A DNA stretch of 64,000 nucleotides from Desulfobacteraceae bacterium (lineage in GTDB: Bacteria; Desulfobacterota; Desulfobacteria; Desulfobacterales; Desulfobacteraceae). Where the stretch lies: assembly GCA_004796375.1 (NCBI GenBank), contig QZLA01000226.1:1-64000 (forward strand), given 5' to 3'. A program made the translations under genes and the position numbers. Of the stretch, positions 22,964-64,000 are shown one piece after another (the first letter of the stretch is position 1; each line of letters begins with the position of its first letter). The notes under the pieces are model-generated. The model ran no database searches. It worked only from the letters and a program-made list of their open reading frames with translations, and had not been told where the DNA came from.

Positions 22964-24655
22964 ATGGCCACCATTTCAAGGATTGTTCTGCTGCTTCTTT
23001 TTATTCCGTTCATTTGTTCTCCATTTGCGGTTGCTCAAACCGCTTCAGACAAGACCACTATGCCGGAGGTTTTGGTATCTGATTCTTCGCATCAACCAAC
23101 CATGGCAAAACAGATGGACAATGTTCTTGATTTTGCCCTCCATGTCACCAAGATGGGAAAGACGGACCCTCATTTTGCCGCCGGTTCACAGGACAGAACC
23201 TTTGCCGATCTGGTTTTCAATGGCCTTCTTCGCTATGTGCCCGGAGGGGCACCGAAAATTGAATCGGATCTTGCCGTTGGAATGCCCGTATTAAGCACTG
23301 TCAATGGAAAACAGACCTGGACAGTCACGCTTCGTAAAGGGGTCATGTTTCATTCCGGTCCCATGACCGCTTCATACGAGCTGACTGCCGATGATGTGGT
23401 GTTTTCTTTTTCTAAGGCCGCAGACCCGGGTCAATCCGCGTATGCAGGAGACTATGACGGCATGACCGTAAAAAAGCGGGATCAATACACGGTCGAATTT
23501 GTCATGGAGAAGCCGATTTCATCGATCCTGTTTTTCCCCAAGATCACAAATTATAATGGTGGGTTCATTGTCAGTAAAAAAGCCGTCGAAAAAATGGGGT
23601 ATGACTCGTATCTTAAACATCCGGTGGGGACGGGTCCGTTTATGTTTAAGGAACACATTCCGGGTGTCAGGCTGAGCCTTGGTGCACATACGGGTTACTT
23701 CAGGGGGAAGCCTGCTCTGGATGGCGTGGCACTGCATTTTGTCCCTGATACTGAAAAGCGGCGTGCTGGACTTTTGGACCATACATTTGATGTGATCATC
23801 GGAAGTGGGAATCAAGGATTTGCAGAGACGCTCTTAAAAAATCCCGGCATAGCGATTAATCCGCATGGACCTGGTGAGGTGACCACCGTTTATTTGAATA
23901 CAAGCATCCCGCCCATGGATGACATCCGTGTCAGAAAGGCCGTGACCCTTGCGCTGAACCGGGACGATTTTTTACAAGTTTACGATGAGAATAGTGCTGG
24001 ACCGGTTTTTTCGCCCGTACCTGCTGACTTTCTTCCAGGGGGGCTCACCCGAGACGAGGTGGTGAAGTTGGGGATCAATTTTGAAACAAATCTTGTAAAG
24101 GCCAGGTCTTTGTTATCGGAAGCGGGATACCCCAAAGGATTTAAACTGGCACTGGTCGGATCTGAAAAACGGGTTTACCGGGCGTGTTATAGAATTCTAC
24201 AGGAGCAGCTCTCCAGAATTGGTATTGAGTGCGAGGTTAAGATCCTCCCGCATTCAGAAATGCATAAAACCATACGGAAAAACCCCAGGCCGATCGTTAT
24301 ATATACGGCATGGCGGCCCAATGCCGATGTTTTTCTGACCCGGTTTTTTCATTCAAATTCCATTCTGCTGACAGGTGAGAAACCGGATACGAATTTTTCA
24401 AACTATGGGTTAATTGATCAACTGATTGAAGGTGCCCGTTTTGAAATTGACCCTGAAAAACAGGTCTCATTATGGCAGCAGGCACAGATTAAACTATTGA
24501 GTGATCATGCGGCTTATCCGGTCATGTACGCGATAATGAATACCCCGCGTCAAAGCTATGTGGATTACGGTCATCCGCTGAAGGCGTCAATGGCGCTCTA
24601 TCCCCAGTTTACCGAAAGAACACGGCTCTTAAAGGAAAACGCTATAAATGAATAG
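22964..24655 (+). CDS. Peptide/nickel-type ABC solute-binding protein (SBP_bac_5)
   Basis: This 563-residue protein has a signal peptide (hydrophobic core VLLLLFIPFICSPFAVAQ, cleavage after about residue 25) and the family-5 binding-protein fold typical of oligopeptide, dipeptide and nickel uptake. Family features are TWTVTLRKGVMFHSG (about 120) and VRKAVTLALNRDDFL (about 323). A GGAGGAG site precedes the ATG. No permease or ATPase gene is adjacent. It may serve a distant transporter or act as a sensory binding protein for the convergent Cache-domain gene. Confidence 0.88.
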   Translation: MATISRIVLLLLFIPFICSPFAVAQTASDKTTMPEVLVSDSSHQPTMAKQMDNVLDFALHVTKMGKTDPHFAAGSQDRTFADLVFNGLLRYVPGGAPKIESDLAVGMPVLSTVNGKQTWTVTLRKGVMFHSGPMTASYELTADDVVFSFSKAADPGQSAYAGDYDGMTVKKRDQYTVEFVMEKPISSILFFPKITNYNGGFIVSKKAVEKMGYDSYLKHPVGTGPFMFKEHIPGVRLSLGAHTGYFRGKPALDGVALHFVPDTEKRRAGLLDHTFDVIIGSGNQGFAETLLKNPGIAINPHGPGEVTTVYLNTSIPPMDDIRVRKAVTLALNRDDFLQVYDENSAGPVFSPVPADFLPGGLTRDEVVKLGINFETNLVKARSLLSEAGYPKGFKLALVGSEKRVYRACYRILQEQLSRIGIECEVKILPHSEMHKTIRKNPRPIVIYTAWRPNADVFLTRFFHSNSILLTGEKPDTNFSNYGLIDQLIEGARFEIDPEKQVSLWQQAQIKLLSDHAAYPVMYAIMNTPRQSYVDYGHPLKASMALYPQFTERTRLLKENAINE

Positions 24656-51930: not shown

Positions 51931-54477
51931 TTAGGATGGTTGGATGATGTTCAACAGTTGCCCGCCCTCATTGGCTGCGGCAGATGTCCAGAAAACCGAT
52001 TGATTTTCCCTGATACCGGGCAGGCTGTTTACGAAACGGGCAACGTCCTGGGCTTCGCTGCTCCCTTTATGGGACTGACAGTTGCCCTCATGGCATCCGG
52101 CCAGGATGACTTTTTCAGGGCCCCGGGCCAGGGATTTGAGGACCAGGCCGGTACTGATGCGGCAGGCACAGGGTACTTCGATCACCTGGCAGTCCTGATC
52201 ACCCAGGGTTCCATTTTCAAACACGGTTTTGGCGGCCAGGGCGGCGGAGCGTTGACAGGCAAACACCACACACTGCCCCTTTTGAATGGCGGCGATCATC
52301 TCATCATCGGAATGGTCGGTCTTTTCAATGGCCAGGGCCGGGCAGTTGGCCACACACAGGCCGCATGCATAACAGGCCTCCGGGACGATAGCCGGTTTAA
52401 CCCCGTTGTTGATCCGTATGGCTGAATGGGGGCAGACCCTCAGGCAGGTCAGGCATTTGGCACATTTTTTTTCATTGATCACCACCCCGGGATCTGCCGG
52501 GTCTTGGGGATGCTTTAGCTCCCAGAGCCGGGCACAGATGTTGAGCAGTTCCGCCTGAACATCATCCGGTGTCACATCATCGTGACCGGTGCCGGTATAG
52601 AAGACACCTTTTCTGAACGATCCGGTCAGCCGGTGGCGGATATTGGGAGATTGGAGTCCCCCTTCTCGATCCAGGGGTTCATTGACAAGATCGGCCAATG
52701 CATCAAAGTAAACATCAGGAACAGACCGGTCCGGTAGGATCAGCCACTGGCTTTCCACAGAAACCGCCATCCCTTTCAAGGATACTTCCTTGACGGTGAA
52801 TTGAATGATATCGGACTGATCTGCGGCCTGGATATCATCCGGTGTGTTGATCCTTAAAAACTTAACACCGTTCTTTCTGGCTTCATCATACAGGCGCTGG
52901 CCGTCCATTCCATGAACCAGCATCTTTTCCATGAATACCGTAACGGTTTTTTTCAGTTTGGCTGCCCGGGTTGCCAAAAGGAGCAACTGCCGGGAAGATT
53001 GTTTGGATTCCGGACCGGAAAAGTCCTGCCAGAACGCCAGTTTATCAGGGATCATTTCAGGATCCGTATCCAGTGTGCTTGCAAACCCTTCCAGGGAGAG
53101 GATCTTGTCGGATTTGATTCCAAGATCGTTACCCGCGGGCAGGAATTGGTCTTCCCCGGCAAGGATGATGGCCCGGCATGACAGTGAAAATGATTTTTTC
53201 TTTTCCTCGTCGCCTGCAGTGTAGGTCAGGAGATATTGGTTGGCATACCCGGTCACCGAAACGACCCGGGAATCGGGGATATAGTTGTTCAGAGTGGCCG
53301 GCAGATCCCTTCTATGGCCCTGGCCGAAGACCCAGGGGTCAAATCCTAGGGCAGACAGGGTGTGTGCCGTCTCGATTCCGGCATGACCGTCACCCATGAC
53401 CGCCACAGGGAACGGATCGGACGGTTGGGAAGCCTCAGCGGCCGATTGGATGATCCTATGGGCGCAATTTTCGCCTTCCACGACAGAGGTGATAATATCC
53501 TTGGGCCCGTCGGCACATCCTGCAACCAGGATTCCCGGATCAGAGGATTGACCGCTGCTTCCAGGGATGCCGTTGGTCAGGAATCCCCAGTCATTGACCG
53601 GCAGATCAAGACCTTGAACCATCCCGGCCGTTCCCGGCTGGGCATGAAGTCCCACGGACAAAACCACCAGGTCGAAATGCGATGCAGCCCTGGCCATGGA
53701 GTCAGGATTTTCGTGGATCAGGGTTAATGGATTGTCCGGGTTACCTTTTAGGATCTCCGCTGGAACGCCCTGGACCAGGCGGATATTGTCTTTGAGTGCA
53801 CCAAACTCCGTTCTGGCCTCTTTTCCGATCACCTGGAGGTCCATATAAAACATCGTGACATCCGCACCCGGAATCATGTGAAGGATCTTATTGATATGCC
53901 TCAAGGAAATTTTGCAGCAGACCTGCGAGCAAAAATCCCGCTTCTTTTCCCGGTTCCTTGAACCGACACATTGCAGGAATGCGATTCGGGGAGATTCTTT
54001 GTCTGTGAGGAACCGGTCAAGGTTCTGGTTGGTCAACAGGTGGTTCAACTGGTTGGTGGTGATGACACCGGGGTGTGCATCACATGCCTGACCCAGAAGT
54101 CCATCCGGTCTGAATGCTGAAAATCCGGATGCCAGGATCACATGATCTGCTTTCAGGGGGGGAGAATCCGGATCCAATATGGCAGAGTAGGACCCCTCGT
54201 TTTTCTCAATGGCCGTTACCTGTTGGTTGAGGTGAAGAGAGATGCCGTTCTTATTTGCAACGGATTGTGCAAGCTCCTGTGACAGGCAGGCCCCGCAGTT
54301 CTGGCAGGTATCCGTGGCCATGCATGCCCAAAGGGATGCATTTCCGCCAAGGGTAGGTGATTTCTCCACAAGATGAACATTGATATGATGTTGGGCCAGG
54401 TGACGGGCTGCTGACATTCCGGCGACACCACCGCCGACAACCACAACGGTTTTTTCCTCTAGCGCATGTTTGTTCAT
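51931..54477 (-). CDS. HdrA-like FAD/iron-sulfur protein with C-terminal MvhD-like domain
   Basis: This 848-residue protein has an FAD fold (VVVVGGGVAGMSAARHL, about 11-27), the HdrA-type Cys cluster CMATDTCQNCGACL (about 52-65), a large FAD body, two ferredoxin motifs (CAKCLTCLRVCP, CYACGLCVANCP, about 670-715) and an MvhD/FlpD-like domain (about 735-848, VPCACRISTG, AGCHEGNCQSHKG). The fusion equals that in QmoB and in HdrA-MvhD proteins that take electrons from hydrogenase, formate dehydrogenase or NADH. With the adjacent HdrD-like protein it would form a soluble flavin-based electron-transfer or bifurcating complex. The donor is not in the window. Confidence 0.9.
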   Translation of the reverse strand: MNKHALEEKTVVVVGGGVAGMSAARHLAQHHINVHLVEKSPTLGGNASLWACMATDTCQNCGACLSQELAQSVANKNGISLHLNQQVTAIEKNEGSYSAILDPDSPPLKADHVILASGFSAFRPDGLLGQACDAHPGVITTNQLNHLLTNQNLDRFLTDKESPRIAFLQCVGSRNREKKRDFCSQVCCKISLRHINKILHMIPGADVTMFYMDLQVIGKEARTEFGALKDNIRLVQGVPAEILKGNPDNPLTLIHENPDSMARAASHFDLVVLSVGLHAQPGTAGMVQGLDLPVNDWGFLTNGIPGSSGQSSDPGILVAGCADGPKDIITSVVEGENCAHRIIQSAAEASQPSDPFPVAVMGDGHAGIETAHTLSALGFDPWVFGQGHRRDLPATLNNYIPDSRVVSVTGYANQYLLTYTAGDEEKKKSFSLSCRAIILAGEDQFLPAGNDLGIKSDKILSLEGFASTLDTDPEMIPDKLAFWQDFSGPESKQSSRQLLLLATRAAKLKKTVTVFMEKMLVHGMDGQRLYDEARKNGVKFLRINTPDDIQAADQSDIIQFTVKEVSLKGMAVSVESQWLILPDRSVPDVYFDALADLVNEPLDREGGLQSPNIRHRLTGSFRKGVFYTGTGHDDVTPDDVQAELLNICARLWELKHPQDPADPGVVINEKKCAKCLTCLRVCPHSAIRINNGVKPAIVPEACYACGLCVANCPALAIEKTDHSDDEMIAAIQKGQCVVFACQRSAALAAKTVFENGTLGDQDCQVIEVPCACRISTGLVLKSLARGPEKVILAGCHEGNCQSHKGSSEAQDVARFVNSLPGIRENQSVFWTSAAANEGGQLLNIIQPS

Positions 54478-55797: not shown

Positions 55798-56097
55798 ATT
55801 TATAACCCACTGAAAAAATAAGCATATTTGGTTCCTTTGGGGCGATCTGGGAACTTCCCATGAAAAAATAGGGAAAAACCCCGGGCGAAATGGGCATTCC
55901 CCCAATTGTTTTTTGATCCTGGATATTGTTTTCTATTATCACGCCAGGGAATTACAGCCAGAGCCCGGAAATTTGAGGGCACCTCCGCTGGTTGTTTTCC
56001 ACAGCGGCCGGGCAGGGAAGGTCGGGCCCTGCCCGGTCAACCAAAATACATTAAAGGGGTTTAAAATCCATTGTATTCAAAAAAAGGAGAAAGGGTC
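55798..56097. other. Structured 300-base intergenic region
   Basis: No convincing gene is seen between the NUDIX stop and the secreted-protein start. The stretch is rich in G- and C-runs able to pair (GGGAA-C-TTCCC near 55850-55860) and has one strong hairpin at 56008-56036. It could be a long leader or a small RNA, but no known riboswitch consensus was recognised. Confidence 0.35.
56008..56036 (+). terminator. GC-rich hairpin upstream of the secreted repeat protein
   Basis: CCGGGCAGGG (56008-56017) and CCCTGCCCGG (56027-56036) form a perfect 10-base stem with a 9-base loop. No T-tract follows, so it is either a weak terminator for the upstream genes or part of a structured leader ending 61 bases before the next start codon. 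Confidence 0.5.
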
Positions 56098-56877
56098 ATG
56101 AAAAAGCTTATCAGTTTAACCATCGTATGTTTACTTTTTGGAACCGCAGCCACTGTATTCGGGGCAGGCGGGCAGGGACGCATGGCAGTCAGGAATGCCT
56201 ATTTTGACAAGGCCACCGGGCACAAGTATTTCAGGAATACGGACAACACCTACAGCGAGTATTCCAAGAAAGGTGTTTTTTTAAAAAGCGGGATTCCCAG
56301 CACCTCTGCGCTGCTGGTATCCGGAAAGCATATTACCCCCATGGGAAATGACACCTACCTGGTTTACCATCGTTACATGAACAACACCAATGATCTCCAG
56401 ATTCTGCCCTCCAATGCCCCCCATCCTGAGGGCTGGAGAAGTGAAAGCATCCTGTATTCAGGAAAGGCTCTCAATCAGCAGGAAACCGGTCTGGCCTATA
56501 CCAAGAGCAGCGGCTCCTACCGTCTGGTGGCCAAACGAATCATTGCCGTCGGTCCGGCTTACTTTGATACCGCCACCGGGCACAAGTACCTGAGAAACCA
56601 GGACAACACCTATACGGAATTTTCCAGACGGGGCAAAGTGCTGAAAACATCTGTCCCCAATACGCTTCCCCTGCTTGTTTCCGGTAGGAACATCATTGAA
56701 TTGAATAAAGACAGCTACCTGGTGTACGAAAAAGGGTTCAGCAGCAAAACTGAGCAGCAGGTGCTGCCCTCCTGGGAAAAACATCCGGACAACTGGCAGT
56801 GCAAGGATGTGTTGTTTACCGCAGATAATGTTTCCGGCATGAAGGGAAATCCCATTGGATATACACGCACCAACTAA
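56098..56877 (+). CDS. Secreted protein of two tandem repeats, unknown function
   Basis: This 259-residue protein has a clean signal peptide (MKKLISLTIVCLLFGTAATVFGAG) and two tandem copies of a module of about 110 residues. Each copy carries YFD(K/T)ATGHKY, then DNTY(S/T)E(Y/F)S, then a Leu-rich LLVSG, then YLVY and (Q)ILPS/VLPS with a Trp. The copies are roughly half identical. A GGAGAAAGG site precedes the ATG. No known family is recognised. The absence of membrane anchors suggests a periplasmic or exported protein, perhaps carbohydrate- or surface-binding. Confidence 0.75.
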   Translation: MKKLISLTIVCLLFGTAATVFGAGGQGRMAVRNAYFDKATGHKYFRNTDNTYSEYSKKGVFLKSGIPSTSALLVSGKHITPMGNDTYLVYHRYMNNTNDLQILPSNAPHPEGWRSESILYSGKALNQQETGLAYTKSSGSYRLVAKRIIAVGPAYFDTATGHKYLRNQDNTYTEFSRRGKVLKTSVPNTLPLLVSGRNIIELNKDSYLVYEKGFSSKTEQQVLPSWEKHPDNWQCKDVLFTADNVSGMKGNPIGYTRTN

Positions 56878-56889
56878 CCCGACAACCTG

Positions 56890-56929
56890 CCGGGTGTTGC
56901 CTTTTTACGGAGGAGCAGGCAGCACCCGG
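56890..56929 (+). terminator. Rho-independent terminator after the secreted repeat protein
   Basis: CCGGGTGTTGCCT (56890-56902) and AGGCAGCACCCGG (56917-56929) form a 13-base stem with one G-U pair, followed by TTTTGGGTCCTTTTT. It begins 12 bases after the stop codon. Confidence 0.75.
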
Positions 56930-57017
56930 TTTTGGGTCCTTTTTCCCGCCTTTTGACAATCCATCCATCACCATAGGCCCGTCCGGGCCGGAAACAGACA
57001 GAGATGATAACACCTAC

Positions 57018-57686
57018 TTAAACATCCAGGGATGATATGCCGTGTTTGATGGCAAACTTGGTGAGTGCGGGTATGGTGTGCAGGTCCAGTTTGCCCATGA
57101 TGTGACGCTTGTGATTGTCCACTGTTTTTTTACTGATGTACAATAGCTTTGAGATCTCTGCGTTATTTTTCCCCTCAGCGACCAGCTGGAGGATCTCCCT
57201 TTCCCTGGAGGTGAGGCTTGCGATGGCCTGGGATTCTGCCTCGTCATCCGAGCCGGGGGTAATGGCGGTCTGCACGATGAACTCCGTAATCTGGGCCGAC
57301 AGAAACACATTGCCCTCCATCACGGTATGGATGGCGGTGACCAGCTCTTCAAACAGGTTGTTTTTCAGGAGATATCCCTTGGCCCCGCTTTTGAGCATGG
57401 AGAGTACGTATTGCTTTTCTGCGTGCATGGACAGGGCAATGATGCGGGTTTGAGGGTGGCTTTTTAAAATGATCCGGGTGGCTTCGATCCCATTGAGGTC
57501 GGGCATGGAAACATCCATGAGAATCACATCCGGTGAATGAACGGCCATCAGCTCAATGGCCTCCTTACCGGTGCCGGCTTCGGCCACTATCCTGAAATTT
57601 TCCTGAGAGGAAAGGGACTGTTTTAATCCATAGCGGACGATATGGTGATCGTCTACAATCATAATGCTGATGGCTGGGTCGGGCAT
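57018..57686 (-). CDS. NarL/FixJ-family response regulator
   Basis: This 222-residue regulator has a receiver domain (about 5-120, VDDHHIVRYG, phosphoacceptor Asp in VILMDVSMPDLNG near 57, Lys in KSGAKGYLLK) and a LuxR-type helix-turn-helix (about 155-215, TSREREILQLVAEGKNNAEISKLLYISKKTVDNHKRHIM). AGGAGA 7 bases before the ATG at 57686 fixes the start. It lies 111 bases downstream of the multidomain histidine kinase gene, which is of the HisKA_3 type that pairs with NarL-type regulators. Its targets are unknown. Confidence 0.93.
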   Translation of the reverse strand: MPDPAISIMIVDDHHIVRYGLKQSLSSQENFRIVAEAGTGKEAIELMAVHSPDVILMDVSMPDLNGIEATRIILKSHPQTRIIALSMHAEKQYVLSMLKSGAKGYLLKNNLFEELVTAIHTVMEGNVFLSAQITEFIVQTAITPGSDDEAESQAIASLTSREREILQLVAEGKNNAEISKLLYISKKTVDNHKRHIMGKLDLHTIPALTKFAIKHGISSLDV

Positions 57687-57797
57687 ATCGGTTTCTCCTG
57701 CGGCTCTCACTGGCTTAGCAAAAGATGTCTATTAGGATTCAAAAAAAAAAGGGTTTTGTCAAGATTCCTTTGAAAAACTTATGGTTAAAATCAGGGA

Positions 57798-60700
57798 TCA
57801 ATCCGTGGTGTGATTGACAGGGACACGAAGATAAATGGCGCTTCCCTCACCTTTGACAGAGTCGATTTCCATGTCACCTTCAAGTATATTGATCCGTTCC
57901 GAAATACTGAACAACCCGAACCCGTCTCCTTTGCTGACCCGGCTGCGGTCAAACCCCATTCCATTGTCTTTGACGCAGACCGTTAGCCGGCCCTGGTTCA
58001 GGGACAGGGTCATGGATGCTTTATCTGCACGGGCATGCTTGATGATATTGATGATCAGCTCCCGGGACATCCGGTACAGGCTGACCTTCTGGGTATCATT
58101 CAGGGTCAGGGTCGGGGTGATGAAATTTTTGAATTCGATATGGATATCATTCTTGGTGCTGACATCCTCACATAGCCACTCCAGGGCCGCTTCAAGCCCT
58201 ACGTCATACAGAAGCGGGGAACTGAGCTGGAAGGTGAGTGAACGGATATTGGTCAGGGACTGTTCGAGAAGATCCAGGGTGATCCGCGCATTTTGAACAT
58301 GTTCCGGGATTTTCATGGTCTTGAACATGGAGATACTCATGGCCAGGGTCTGGGTGACACTGTCGTGCAGGTCATCGGCAATGGCTTTACGCTCCTGCTC
58401 CTCAACCTCCGCCAGCTGTGACGACATTTTCTGGAGCTGTACCTGGTGTTCCTTGATTTTCCGGGTGGCATGCACCTGCTTTCTGATCTCATTTTTCAGG
58501 TCTTCATACAAGGTTGAGTTGTCAATGGAGATAACCATCTGGTTGATCAGGATGTTCAATGTGCTCACCCGTTCTTCTGTGAATGCACCGCTGATGAGGT
58601 TGTTTTCCAGGTAAAGCACCCCTTTCGTACGCTTTTTCCCTACAACAGGAATACACAGAACGGATATGGGGCGATTTTTAAGCATGTATGGATCATGGTT
58701 GAACATCCCGCTCCGGGATGCATGCTCAAGGATGATTCGTTTTTGTGACATAAAGACATAATGGACAGTTGATGCGGGCAGCAGATCACTGGTCTGCGCC
58801 ACAATCGAGTCCTGAAGCACCTCGATCTCCTCTGGGTCTGTCTGTGCAGACGCCTGGATTCTGAGGTGATCATCGGTATGCAGGAGTAAAAAGGCCCGTT
58901 GTGCGCCTGAGTTCCTGATGATGAGACTGATCAGCTGTTTCATCAACTTTCTGGGTTGGACCTCTCTTGAAATGGCCTGGGATGCCCTGAGCACGGAAAG
59001 GACATCCGGGTCCCTGAAGGCACTGGACCCCGCAGCGCTGGTTTTTGGCGGCAGGGATTCCTTGAGCAGGGCATCAAACTCCTCTTTCAGCAGTTTGGAT
59101 TTTGGTGTGCAGCCCCATTCCTCAAAAAGGCCGATCGATTCCTGAATCAGGAATATGGCAAAATAGGGTTGTTTCTGCTCTAAAAAAAAACGGGCCGCCT
59201 GTTCGCAGCAAATCGCCTCCACATGGATATATCCGGCAGTTCTTGCGGCCTGGATGGCCAGGTGATAAAGCCGGGAAGCCTTTTGGAAACGGTTTTTAAA
59301 TTGATTGTATTTTGCTTGAAGCAGGTAATACATGTGAGGGTTGTTTTCAGGGGCCTGTCTGTATATCTTTTTAAAGAACCCAAGCTGGTCTTTGAAGGTC
59401 TTGAATAAGACGGCCGGGCCGGGGGACGAACCCGGTTTCATGCGATGGGCCAGGGCCAGGGCCAGGGCATGAAAAAACCGATGGGTCATCTGTGCGGTCA
59501 ACGTGACATAACTGTTGAAATAGGGTCTGCCCTTCTCGGCATATATCAGGGATCGGGTATGATCATCATGCAGATAGGCGATGATCTGGCGGTATAGAAA
59601 AAAGTCGGATACTGTCGCGATGGAGTAGGTTTTCTGCCAGGTTGCAACCAATTGCTCATCATAGATGTCCGTCGGGGACGGGGTGAGAAACGGTACATTG
59701 TCTTTGCCGCGCAATATCCGGATCACCTGGAAAAGCAGATCCAGATTCTGGTTCCATATGGCCTGTTTGGCGCCAAGGATATCATTTCGCCGCGCAGCCA
59801 TATCCTGTTCAATCTCGGAAAGTTTTGTTCCCGAGATAAAGTGTAGAAAAAAATACATCACATGGAGGTTGAATACATTCATAAAGATACCGGCACGCAG
59901 AGACTGTTTCAGGATCATGCTGATCTGATTCAAGTGATGCCTGGTTTTTCCGTGGCTGTTAATGGAAATCAGTATAAACAGGTATTCCGGCAGTATTTTC
60001 TGCTTCTCCTCCTTGAACCGGTCAATGGTGTCCACGGCAAGCCTGGCAAATTTGTATCCCTTTTCCAGCCTGTATTTCAGGTTGCTCAGGATGTGGGCGT
60101 AATAGGAGAATACATACCCGGCGTAGGGATTGATTCCTTTTTGGCAGATAAACCGCAGTGCCCGGAACATGACCACAATGGCCAGGGGATTTCCGTTTAG
60201 CGCACACGCCCGTGAAATGATGATCATAATGCGGATAATGGCACTCTGACGGGCATCGGTGATCTCCGGAAGGTCATCGATTTGATCGATGGGGGTTTTA
60301 ATAAGTGCCAGCCTGAATCCGAGAATTTCCCTGATCAGGTAAAACAGGTTGAAACGCCCAGGCAACTGAAATTCAAGCCGCTTGAGGATGGCCAGTGCAG
60401 ATTCTACCACTTCCCCGGCCTGGTATGCCTGCATGAGGTATGCGCTTTTGGCCTCAAGGATGGCCAGCATCTCGTCTGGGTGTCGGCTGTGTGATAATGC
60501 CCGGTCGTAAACTGTCTGGGCACTGGCCTGCTCTCCCATGATAAACAGGATTTCACACTGACGGATATGCAGCCCCATGGTCAGGTTGAAATCAGTGCGC
60601 CATCCATCTGAGCCCATCAGTTCAATCCCTGTTCTAAAATACTGCTCAGCGCTTTGAAGGGACGCCAGTTTCATTTTTTTCTGACCGGCTTTCAGGTTGA

Positions 60701-62882
60701 TGCCGGCCAGTGTGACGCGTTCATTGGGATCCAGAATAAGGCTTGATGCTGCATTCAGCTGATCCGCAATCAGCAGGCAGCGGTCTTCCAACTCATTTTC
60801 AGGGGTGATGGCCAGAAGCTGTCTGCCGATCTTCAGGTGCAGCTGCAGTCTTTCATCTTCAGGAATCAGTTCGGAGGCCGACTCCATGATGATATCATGC
60901 ATGAATCTGAGGTTATCTTTGTCCAACTCCATAATACCATTGGTGAGAATGGGGGCCAGGGCAGATTGAAATTCCAGGCTTGTTTGCGCATAAAGCTTTT
61001 CAAGGATAGGACTGGGTATGGATGATCCGGTACAGGCCGCCAGATTCAAAAGGGTTTTGGATGAGGTATCCAGATGTGCTGTCTTGCGGGAAAGAAAATT
61101 GTCCGGGGTGTTGGTGGCCGGAACCGTGTTGATCTTTTCCAGGTCCCAATGCCAGCTCCGATTTGATGTGCTCAGGATCAACTGTTTTTCCAGCAGGTAG
61201 TCCAGAAACGATTTCAGGTAAAACGGATTGCCCCCTGTCTTTTCATACAGCAGGACGGAGAAAGTCTCCAGGTTTTTTTCAGGTGCCTGACCAGATGCTG
61301 AAAACAGGTCTTTGAGCCAGTTTTTCTGCTGCGCCTCGCTGATGGGGGACAGCGCGATCTCATGGATCTTCATTCCCGAATGCCTGAGTTGATCCACCGC
61401 CCGGATAAACACGTGGTCCCGTGTCACCTGGCTGTCCCGAAAGGCACAGATGATATAAAACCCGTCGATGGGAGACATACCGATGATCTCAATCAGCCGG
61501 ATACTTTCCGGCTCAGCCCACTGGAGATCATCCAGGAACATCACCAGCGGTTTTTCCCGATCGGCAAGGGTTTCGATGAATTTGCGCATGGTGATATTGA
61601 TACGGATCTCATTTTCAATGGGTGACAGATTGATCAGGGGCGGCTGCTTTCCCACAATAAATTCCAGCATGGGAACCATATCTGTCATGATCCTGAGATT
61701 ATTGCCCAGAACGGTGTGGATCTGCTCCTTCCATTTGGACATGGCCGGTTTCCCTTCCGAAATAATCTGCAGGATCAGGGATTCAAATACAGACTGCACC
61801 ACGTTTCGGGTAGGAATCTTGTCATGTTTTCCAATGGCGAAATAAACCCGGTGGTTCAGGCGCCGGCCAACATGTTTGACAAATTCGGTTTTACCGATCC
61901 CGGGCGGGCCTGAAATCATGATCAGCGGGGTTGGGTCCCGTGTGGTGTCGGTCAAGGTATCCATCAACCGGCGGGTGTCGGTTTCCCGTCCATAGATCTG
62001 CTCTGAGAAATCGATACTTTGTATGGGATCATGCTCACCGGGTATGAAGGAAACCTGGGAGACCGGGTCATTGAGGACACTTTTACAAAGCTCAACATCC
62101 TTTTTCAGCACATCACAACTGGTATAGCGATCCTCCGGTCTTTTTTTCATCATTTTCATGATAATGGCTGACATGAACTCCGGGATTTCAGGACGGGTCT
62201 GGTGCGGGGGCACAGGATCCTTTGCCAGGTGGGAGTGAATCAGTTCAAGGGTATCATCCGTTGAAAAGGGGACCCGTCCGGTCATGATTTCATAAAAGGT
62301 GCATCCCAGTGAGTAGAGATCCGACGCCATACTCAGATCAAGGCTTGTCCGTCCGGTTTGCTCCGGTGCCATATAGGCCAGATGTGTTTCAGAGGATTCC
62401 AGAGAATGGATATGTGATTTTCCGGAATCGGTCCGGGAGGGCAGGGCATGTTCAAAACCGGTGATTTTCACATTCAGGTTCTCAGGGTCTACCCACAGGG
62501 TATCGGGGTTGACATAATTATGCAGGATGCTGTTTTGATGGATGTGAGCCAGTGAACCGGAAAGGTTGGCAAGCAGGATCAACTGATCTTCCAGGCCCAG
62601 GTCAGCCGGCAGGATGGATCGCAAGGGACGGGCATTGAAATCGTCATATACCAGGAACTTCAATTGTTCATGAGTCTCCAGTGCCGTTGGTTTGATCACC
62701 TGGCGGGGATCCAGGCCTGATGCAAGGTCATATTCCCTGGTGACCAGGGTATTGGCGGATTGATGGCGGGGAACCTTGATCATTGCCATCCTTCGGTTGG
62801 TCCGATCGCCGGCCCTGTAAATGTTCATCAATTCATTCTGGAAAAGCAGTTCTAAAATATCGAAACCCGGAATATTTGCCAT
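57798..62882 (-). CDS. Giant pseudokinase-AAA-GAF-histidine kinase
   Basis: This 1694-residue cytoplasmic protein has an N-terminal Ser/Thr-kinase fold (about 1-275), an AAA/NACHT-type ATPase (Walker A SGPPGIGKTEF near 327, Walker B MFLDDLQW near 445), a long helical repeat region (about 600-1260), a GAF domain (about 1290-1440), a coiled coil, HisKA_3 with His1506 (DDLHDSVTQTL) and HATPase_c (about 1580-1690). The kinase fold looks inactive: HRDxKPxN is replaced by HNYVNPDT and DFG by GFE. It probably acts as a binding or regulatory module. The NarL-type regulator downstream is the likely phosphate acceptor. Confidence 0.92.
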   Translation of the reverse strand: MANIPGFDILELLFQNELMNIYRAGDRTNRRMAMIKVPRHQSANTLVTREYDLASGLDPRQVIKPTALETHEQLKFLVYDDFNARPLRSILPADLGLEDQLILLANLSGSLAHIHQNSILHNYVNPDTLWVDPENLNVKITGFEHALPSRTDSGKSHIHSLESSETHLAYMAPEQTGRTSLDLSMASDLYSLGCTFYEIMTGRVPFSTDDTLELIHSHLAKDPVPPHQTRPEIPEFMSAIIMKMMKKRPEDRYTSCDVLKKDVELCKSVLNDPVSQVSFIPGEHDPIQSIDFSEQIYGRETDTRRLMDTLTDTTRDPTPLIMISGPPGIGKTEFVKHVGRRLNHRVYFAIGKHDKIPTRNVVQSVFESLILQIISEGKPAMSKWKEQIHTVLGNNLRIMTDMVPMLEFIVGKQPPLINLSPIENEIRINITMRKFIETLADREKPLVMFLDDLQWAEPESIRLIEIIGMSPIDGFYIICAFRDSQVTRDHVFIRAVDQLRHSGMKIHEIALSPISEAQQKNWLKDLFSASGQAPEKNLETFSVLLYEKTGGNPFYLKSFLDYLLEKQLILSTSNRSWHWDLEKINTVPATNTPDNFLSRKTAHLDTSSKTLLNLAACTGSSIPSPILEKLYAQTSLEFQSALAPILTNGIMELDKDNLRFMHDIIMESASELIPEDERLQLHLKIGRQLLAITPENELEDRCLLIADQLNAASSLILDPNERVTLAGINLKAGQKKMKLASLQSAEQYFRTGIELMGSDGWRTDFNLTMGLHIRQCEILFIMGEQASAQTVYDRALSHSRHPDEMLAILEAKSAYLMQAYQAGEVVESALAILKRLEFQLPGRFNLFYLIREILGFRLALIKTPIDQIDDLPEITDARQSAIIRIMIIISRACALNGNPLAIVVMFRALRFICQKGINPYAGYVFSYYAHILSNLKYRLEKGYKFARLAVDTIDRFKEEKQKILPEYLFILISINSHGKTRHHLNQISMILKQSLRAGIFMNVFNLHVMYFFLHFISGTKLSEIEQDMAARRNDILGAKQAIWNQNLDLLFQVIRILRGKDNVPFLTPSPTDIYDEQLVATWQKTYSIATVSDFFLYRQIIAYLHDDHTRSLIYAEKGRPYFNSYVTLTAQMTHRFFHALALALAHRMKPGSSPGPAVLFKTFKDQLGFFKKIYRQAPENNPHMYYLLQAKYNQFKNRFQKASRLYHLAIQAARTAGYIHVEAICCEQAARFFLEQKQPYFAIFLIQESIGLFEEWGCTPKSKLLKEEFDALLKESLPPKTSAAGSSAFRDPDVLSVLRASQAISREVQPRKLMKQLISLIIRNSGAQRAFLLLHTDDHLRIQASAQTDPEEIEVLQDSIVAQTSDLLPASTVHYVFMSQKRIILEHASRSGMFNHDPYMLKNRPISVLCIPVVGKKRTKGVLYLENNLISGAFTEERVSTLNILINQMVISIDNSTLYEDLKNEIRKQVHATRKIKEHQVQLQKMSSQLAEVEEQERKAIADDLHDSVTQTLAMSISMFKTMKIPEHVQNARITLDLLEQSLTNIRSLTFQLSSPLLYDVGLEAALEWLCEDVSTKNDIHIEFKNFITPTLTLNDTQKVSLYRMSRELIINIIKHARADKASMTLSLNQGRLTVCVKDNGMGFDRSRVSKGDGFGLFSISERINILEGDMEIDSVKGEGSAIYLRVPVNHTTD

Positions 62883-62897
62883 AACCGTTCCTTTTCT

Positions 62898-63038
62898 CTA
62901 TGAACTCCGGCCAGGGTCCAGGCTGGCGATACGGTCCAATGGCAAAGCCATGACCGGGATATCCCCGTGAATTGCTGCCGAAGATATCCCGACGGCGATC
63001 ATGATAATGATGAAAACGAACAGTCCGATTCCTTTCAT
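62898..63038 (-). CDS. 46-residue membrane/secreted peptide upstream of the giant kinase
   Basis: An ATG at 63038, with GGAG 7 bases before it, opens a 46-codon frame ending at a TAG (62898). It has a hydrophobic N-terminal helix (LFVFIIIMIAVGISSAA) and a short polar tail. Its stop lies 15 bases before the giant kinase start on the same strand. It could be a membrane anchor, a small sensor partner or a leader peptide. No family is recognised. Confidence 0.5.
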   Translation of the reverse strand: MKGIGLFVFIIIMIAVGISSAAIHGDIPVMALPLDRIASLDPGRSS

Positions 63039-63157
63039 GTCTGTGCTCCAGTATGAAACAATCAGCTATTCTACACTGCTGGCTGCTAGAGATACACGCG
63101 AGGTGCTTGATGAAATATCAACAATTATGAGAAAAATTGCAAGTTAAAATTCTAAGG

Positions 63158-63170
63158 GGTATTGAATACC
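63158..63170. promoter_or_regulatory. Palindrome in the divergent kinase/pirin region
   Basis: GGTATT-G-AATACC is a perfect 6-base inverted repeat about 80 bases before the pirin start and 120 bases before the small-peptide start. It could be an operator for either gene. The evidence is only the symmetry and the position. Confidence 0.3.
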
Positions 63171-63250
63171 ATAAATAAATGTTAGATTAACGCATGTTGA
63201 GGGTTTTATGGGTGCGATTCGAATCAAGTCAATCCAACAGGGGGAATTTC

Positions 63251-64000
63251 ATGTCAGCCATAAGAAAGATCAAACGTATCTTAACCCGCCAGCCCGTCAT
63301 GGAGGGTGCCGGGGTCCACTTAAACCGGGTGTTCGGATATCATGAGGCCCCGGCATTTGACCCTTTTCTGATGCTCGACGATTTTCGGTCCGATACGCCG
63401 GAGCATTATCTAAAGGGGTTTCCCTGGCATCCCCACCGGGGCATTGAAACCATCACCTATGTGCTGAAAGGCGATGTGGAACACGGGGACAGCCTGGGCA
63501 ATAAAGGCACGATCTCTTCCGGGGATGTACAGTGGATGACGGCAGGCAGCGGCATTGTTCACCAGGAAATGCCCAAGGGCGATGCCAAGGGATCCATGCA
63601 TGGATTCCAGTTGTGGGCCAATCTTCCGGCATCCCAGAAAATGATGCCGCCCAAATACCGCGACATTACGTCGGACAAGATCCCTGAGGTCCACACCCGG
63701 GACGGTGTCCGCATCAAGGTGATTGCCGGGGATGTGAACGGGGAAAAAGGACCCATGGATGACGTTGTTATAGATCCTGAATTCTTAGACTGTACCGTCC
63801 CTGGGAAACAGACCTATACCCATGACGTTGACCCCGGATATACCGCTTTTATTTATGTGATTGACGGCAACGGGACAACGGATGGCAAGGGCTTAGGAAA
63901 CGGCACCCTGGTGCTTTATGGTAAAGGGGATTACTTAACCGTAACTGCCTCTGATACTCCGGTAAGGTTCCTGCTGCTGACAGGCAAGCCCTTAAAAGAG
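63251..64000 (+). CDS. Pirin-family protein (incomplete at the right edge)
   Basis: This is the first 250 residues of a pirin, a bicupin metal protein of about 280-300 residues. The metal site is visible: two His in WHPHRGIETITYV (about 56-58) and the His and Glu of GSGIVHQEMP (about 101-103). Bacterial pirins include quercetinase-like dioxygenases and regulators of pyruvate dehydrogenase, so the role is open. AGGGGGAA precedes the ATG. The frame runs past the window end without a stop. Confidence 0.9.
   Translation, partial: MSAIRKIKRILTRQPVMEGAGVHLNRVFGYHEAPAFDPFLMLDDFRSDTPEHYLKGFPWHPHRGIETITYVLKGDVEHGDSLGNKGTISSGDVQWMTAGSGIVHQEMPKGDAKGSMHGFQLWANLPASQKMMPPKYRDITSDKIPEVHTRDGVRIKVIAGDVNGEKGPMDDVVIDPEFLDCTVPGKQTYTHDVDPGYTAFIYVIDGNGTTDGKGLGNGTLVLYGKGDYLTVTASDTPVRFLLLTGKPLKE

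Follow-up and report, generated by a model that had tools for sequence, protein, structure and literature searches.

Giant sensors in which a serine/threonine kinase (STK)-like domain is joined to a histidine kinase have been described from cyanobacteria to fungi. The cbSTKIII 'dual protein kinases' of cyanobacteria have an N-terminal STK-like domain, a GAF domain and a C-terminal histidine kinase, and in the part of the survey available to us all of them are KD kinases with a HisKA domain; the same part reports five cyanobacterial STKs without the catalytic Asp (PMC2176072), and STK-like sequences without this residue are tabulated in the accessible section of another survey (PMC1262709). The fungal Chk1 is described, in the excerpt on which we draw, with the domains S_TKc, AAA_16, GAF and histidine kinase, and a Chk1 without S_TKc and AAA gave an avirulence phenotype on mucosa that matched that of the full deletion (PMC9069115). 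Mak2 and Mak3 carry STK and GAF domains according to the corresponding excerpt, and all three fungal proteins are hybrid kinases with a receiver domain of their own (PMC9069115, PMC5383687). No title among the literature matches listed refers to a branch of such sensors with HisKA_3 ends, NarL-type regulators and dead kinases, and a printed account of one may exist.

Here we describe a locus in a 64,000-nucleotide stretch of DNA from a Desulfobacteraceae bacterium (contig QZLA01000226.1, hereafter the window), which encodes a protein of this known kind in a little-described, kinase-dead form. Three open reading frames, for a NarL-type regulator, a giant kinase and a short hydrophobic peptide, had been proposed to form an operon, and all three are found on the minus strand (Table 1). 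The peptide frame ends 15 nt ahead of the kinase start, and by eye a Shine-Dalgarno-like stretch precedes both starts. A promoter scan of 56800-63400 returned no sigma-70-like site on the minus strand; the total was 5 sites, where 8.0 were expected. A 268-aa frame (56071-56877, plus strand) runs convergently to the regulator gene, with a signal-peptide-like start and, by eye, two similar halves, for which no Pfam match was obtained at E 0.01. Further along, at 51931-54477 on the minus strand, is a gene for a flavoprotein of 848 aa that carries ferredoxin and FlpD domains and that we take to be HdrA-like.

Table 1. Features of the sensor kinase locus, in window coordinates.
Feature	Position	Strand	Basis
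NarL-type response regulator (REC + LuxR HTH)	57018..57710	-	PF00072, PF00196
Pseudokinase-AAA-GAF-HisKA_3 sensor kinase, 1694 aa	57798..62882	-	ORF; Pfam and NCBIfam domains
Ser/Thr-kinase-like N-terminal domain, residues 1-270, dead by motif	62073..62882	-	PF00069 and motif alignments
HNYVNPDT catalytic loop, residues 121-128 (family norm HKDINPSN)	62499..62522	-	Alignments
GFE replacing DFG, residues 142-144	62451..62459	-	Alignments
AAA_16 (STAND-like) ATPase domain, GPPGIGKT and FLDDLQWAE	61488..62000	-	Pfam, motifs
GAF domain, residues 1310-1454	58521..58955	-	PF13185, PF01590
HisKA_3 domain, residues 1497-1554; ADDLHDSVTQ holds His1506	58221..58394	-	PF07730, motif
HATPase_c domain, residues 1600-1690	57813..58085	-	PF02518
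Signal-peptide-like ORF, 46 aa; possible SBP_bac_5 N-terminus remnant or lookalike	62898..63038	-	ORF, sequence searches

By its predicted domains the window protein belongs to the STK-AAA-GAF-histidine kinase giants exemplified by HstK/cbSTKIII and the fungal Chk1. Pfam places Pkinase (PF00069) at residues 22-261 (E 8.3e-20; 71.7 bits, cut-off 31.7), with AAA_16 (residues 295-465) and GAF between it and the histidine kinase, and the retention of the AAA and histidine kinase ends, as originally predicted, is borne out by matches to AAA_16, HisKA_3 (24.6 bits, cut-off 24) and HATPase_c (38.1 bits, cut-off 26.4). A TPR-like middle is hinted at only (PF17874, 18.0 bits, cut-off 45). The mean hydropathy over 19 residues peaks at 1.64, a level typical of soluble proteins, in agreement with the earlier view that the sensor is otherwise soluble. 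Whereas the cbSTKIII proteins combine a KD kinase with HisKA (PMC2176072, available part), the window protein has Tyr for the catalytic Asp, a HisKA_3 end and a separate NarL-type regulator, whose gene lies downstream of the kinase gene, where it had been claimed to end the operon.

The N-terminal domain is homologous to PknB (E 7e-23), and in the alignment HRDVKPAN of PknB falls on HNYVNPDT and DFG on GFE. Judged against the family norm (HKDINPSN...DFG), the catalytic Asp has become Tyr, the loop Asn Thr and the DFG Asp Gly; the KD catalytic loop and DFG of the cbSTKIII proteins are thus absent here. The ATP-site Lys36, the alpha-C Glu50, the His of HRD, PEQTGR and Asp188 are retained. The original prediction held that HRD, the catalytic-loop Lys and DFG had all been lost, which is right for the Asp and for DFG, but the His of HRD is kept, and the missing Lys says little because most intact relatives also lack it (HKDIN, with Asn in its place, by eye). 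The designation as a pseudokinase is sustained by the combined loss of three catalytic residues, the Asp and Asn of the loop and the Asp of DFG, and the best-scoring relative, L072, is without the catalytic Asp as well. Intact motifs in close homologues would speak against it; the closest are not intact, but most relatives with other outputs are. By motif the domain is catalytically dead, and we would expect it to lack kinase activity. Against this, some pseudokinases still transfer phosphate or AMP, and the window protein does retain Lys36 and Glu50. An AlphaFold model of residues 1-290 was discarded, its mean pLDDT of 39.1 being too poor for judging the fold.

To place the protein among its relatives we searched 389 genomes of the order, of which 376 gave matches at E <= 0.001, many of them in the histidine kinase end alone. 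From this search and one of 145 relatives we drew 99 distinct members in which the AAA region is present, two to three candidates per genome being scored among the matches listed, and types that reach the C-terminus or end in HisKA_3 being sought on purpose. Outputs were sorted by motif (HisKA, GGDEF, SpoIIE-type phosphatase, sigma-54-type or unsorted), and the HisKA_3 type was assigned by BLAST with the window histidine kinase region, an earlier motif search having given 4 members. Thirty of the 99 members, the window protein included, end in HisKA_3, which is no measure of frequency because the set was chosen. A NarL-type regulator gene lies within 1.5 kb downstream on the same strand in 29 of these 30 (the exception is L068) against 0 of the 69 others, the flanks available for this count often being only about 1.5 kb. 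The best-scoring relative, L072, shares HisKA_3 and a NarL-type regulator with the window protein at 33% identity over the whole length and is dead by motif (HQN and DFQ), and L071 has kept AAA, body, HisKA_3 and NarL-type regulator without any kinase domain; no kinase piece was found ahead of L071, where the preceding gene ends 111 bases upstream of its frame. A search of 395 genomes of the phylum at E up to 1e-80 found matches in 23, and the single match from outside the order to reach near the C-terminus was G400 (residues 322-1676, 23%).

Among the aligned members of the order, the HisKA_3 output always goes with loss of the catalytic Asp: the residue is present in 0 of 28 alignable HisKA_3 members and in 56 of 66 members with other outputs (HisKA 17/21, GGDEF 10/12, SpoIIE 8/8, sigma-54 3/3, unsorted 13/17, cut-off members 5/5). 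Lys, Asp, Asn and DFG Asp occur together in 51 of the 66 others and in none of the 28. Excluded from the count were L071 (no kinase domain), L104 (frame reaching the contig edge), L070_1 and L074_0 (short N-termini), L107 (broken end) and L076 (a copy of the window protein), and L002 was removed as a copy of L072.

The loss is not spread evenly over the domain. Mean retention of the consensus sites across the 28 HisKA_3 members is 0.34 for the N-lobe and 0.32 for the catalytic region, but 0.79 between the APE segment and residue 270. The same site sets give 0.76, 0.79 and 0.86 for the 51 intact members on which the consensus is based, and as lower retention is to be expected relative to a consensus-defining set, the contrast between the N- and C-terminal halves is the informative part. 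With the distal C-lobe conserved and the ATP-binding and catalytic half decaying, a structural role is suggested for the retained lobe. We consider it unlikely that the whole domain is instead in decay, its role gone and the domain heading for loss. Such an explanation would account for L071 and for the N-lobes that are missing or unalignable in L046, L090 and L091, but not for the distal C-lobe sites, 13 of which, among those listed, are present in 28 of 28 HisKA_3 members despite much divergence within the clade. We likewise doubt that the domain is a nucleotide-sensing pseudokinase, which would bind ATP through Lys36 and Glu50 and gate the AAA and histidine kinase parts by its occupancy. 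Both residues are retained in the window protein, and each occurs in 4 of the 28 HisKA_3 members, the window protein included; on the other hand 24 of the 28 have no Lys (4 of these being gaps), and the DFG Asp and the loop Asn are both gone, so that binding of Mg-ATP is unlikely.

For the two trees we used the AAA and middle region and omitted the kinase-like and histidine kinase domains; both trees are quick searches with long branches. The HisKA_3 label has to change five times on the tree of 94 rows, where starred branches force four of the changes, and five times again on the tree of 48 hand-picked rows (14 of the 30 HisKA_3 members and 34 others), where they force two. A single HisKA_3 clade, constrained over the 14 rows, was rejected (p-AU 0.00138, in a test named after the first tree had been seen). 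A clade of the window protein, L072 and L071 was favored, its lnL exceeding that of the free tree by 18.65 (p-AU 0.83), the window protein itself sitting on a long branch with its placement unsure. Because the single clade is rejected and label changes are forced on both trees, the HisKA_3 state probably has at least two origins and perhaps as many as four. An independent-pairs sign test found two pairs on starred branches and five on all (median p 0.5), and it falls short of significance because the independent pairs are too few.

Outside the order we chose 10 plasmid-borne relatives with HisKA_3 ends from 803 matched records, which share with the window protein the HisKA_3 end and, except for L145, where the N-terminus is missing, a kinase-like N-terminus. 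A Nostoc plasmid relative aligns to residues 1-1690 of the window protein at 28%. In all six cyanobacterial proteins whose N-terminus is present (L139-L144, one Nostoc strain contributing three) HKDINP[GE]N and DFG are intact, and a response-regulator gene follows directly 3' in all 5 annotated cyanobacterial records. A HisKA_3 end with a regulator thus requires no loss of the kinase, and a general rule by which HisKA_3 would everywhere go with a dead kinase is ruled out by these intact relatives. All 3 Paraburkholderia proteins (L135, L146 and L147) keep HKD, yet GFG replaces DFG and His replaces the Asn; in the two annotated Paraburkholderia records the gene directly downstream is not a regulator. 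Three further plasmid relatives (L134, L136 and L138), whose output class is unsorted, have altered kinase motifs. On a Pseudoalteromonas plasmid (L137, 2456-7695) the architecture is naturally split, the STK domain and the ATPase-histidine kinase part being encoded by two neighboring genes.

The 46-aa peptide consists of an MKG start, a long hydrophobic stretch, SSAA and a short hydrophilic tail. The claim of a hydrophobic peptide with a ribosome site is accurate: among the 197 frames of 40-80 aa in the window, counted from the first ATG, it is the only one with both a strong N-terminal hydrophobic stretch and a Shine-Dalgarno-like motif. Its codon use is coding-like, at 0.142 per codon where true window genes have a mean of 0.202 (sd 0.097), a score that 28% of antisense windows in one register also reach. 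No Pfam or NCBIfam match to the peptide was found, and at 46 aa it does not hold a whole SBP_bac_5 domain. Of 86 family genomes searched, 31 contained at least one match at E <= 1. The seven best outside the window, and one in its own genome, lie near the N-termini of SBP_bac_5-type proteins of about 540 aa (E 0.0014 to 0.054 per genome, 37-40% identity), which are 73-75% identical to the own-genome copy, itself SBP_bac_5 and by eye preceding DppB/DppC-like genes. The tail motif VMA...D.I.SLDP is in register between the peptide and these binding proteins. Against a profile of the eight, a family picked by means of the peptide, it scores 27.3 bits, which none of 3000 shuffles of either kind reached. 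Against seven other own-genome binding proteins, chosen by hand among 16 loci because their signal peptides are plain, the score is 11.4 bits; 1 of 3000 full shuffles and 29 of 3000 tail shuffles reach that value, and the next decoy signal-peptide frame follows at 10.6. We regard it as possible to probable that the peptide is a remnant of an OppA/DppA-like binding protein, whose signal-peptide end it weakly resembles. One of the genome's 18 SBP_bac_5 matches lies within the window (23303-24358, plus strand), about 39 kb from the peptide.

A function for the peptide as tether or regulator had been put forward, and its conservation upstream of related kinases bears on this idea. We scanned 97 of the 99 members for frames of 20-130 aa with a mean hydropathy above 1.6 whose end falls anywhere from 150 bases upstream to 60 bases downstream of the estimated kinase start. 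Six of the scanned members have a hydrophobic short frame of some sort, and no homologue of the peptide was found upstream of any of the 96 other members, which are relatives from outside its own genus and thus distant; L072 and L071 likewise have no peptide of the window type. The tether idea is therefore not supported, and the peptide as a conserved operon member was rejected. It was also rejected as a lost N-terminus of the kinase, since the family aligns from near the annotated start and a stop codon intervenes. BLAST with the own-genome copy (E 1e-5, frames of at least 100 aa) revealed no binding-protein gene beside the kinases of other members in the loci that it covered. The nearest analogue is an unrelated 37-aa signal-peptide-like frame that overlaps the kinase start of the HisKA-type member L018 by 4 bases. 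This analogue, together with the coding-like codons, the ribosome site and the 15-nt gap, could be taken to mean that the peptide is a real functional partner of the sensor, be it a tether, a secreted ligand or a regulator, but given that it looks like the N-terminus of a binding protein and has no counterpart upstream of the 96 other members, such a partnership seems improbable to us, and we favor the remnant.

From the motifs, the domain order, the gene order and the counts over the collected members we infer, with a probability of about 0.65, that the window protein is a cytosolic sensor of the HstK kind, with a non-phosphorylating structural or docking remnant of an STK, a relay from HisKA_3 to the NarL-type regulator, and a non-conserved peptide beside it. 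The N-terminal kinase domain would no longer phosphorylate, and what remains of the fold, chiefly the distal C-lobe, would most likely serve as a structural or docking part beside the AAA/STAND body. Autophosphorylation of His1506 in HisKA_3 may then be controlled by the AAA, middle and GAF parts, through the binding of a signal or the turnover of ATP, and from this His phosphate would pass to the neighboring NarL-type regulator; both the HisKA_3 His and an adjacent REC-LuxR regulator are present at the locus. The 46-aa ORF, a signal peptide with a short OppA/DppA-like tail, is probably a leftover in the operon leader. More tentatively, and at somewhat less than even odds, we propose for the order as a whole that lineages which took up the HisKA_3 and NarL-type output, at least two and perhaps four of them, lost the STK active site and kept the distal C-lobe, which may act as a repurposed, non-catalytic clamp on the STAND body that relays to the histidine kinase.

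Natural variants of this kind bear on the role that the kinase-like domain plays in giant sensors from cyanobacteria to fungi. Having no active site but a conserved half of the fold, they separate a catalytic role from a structural one, and the residues that they single out are PEQTGR and the core that follows it.
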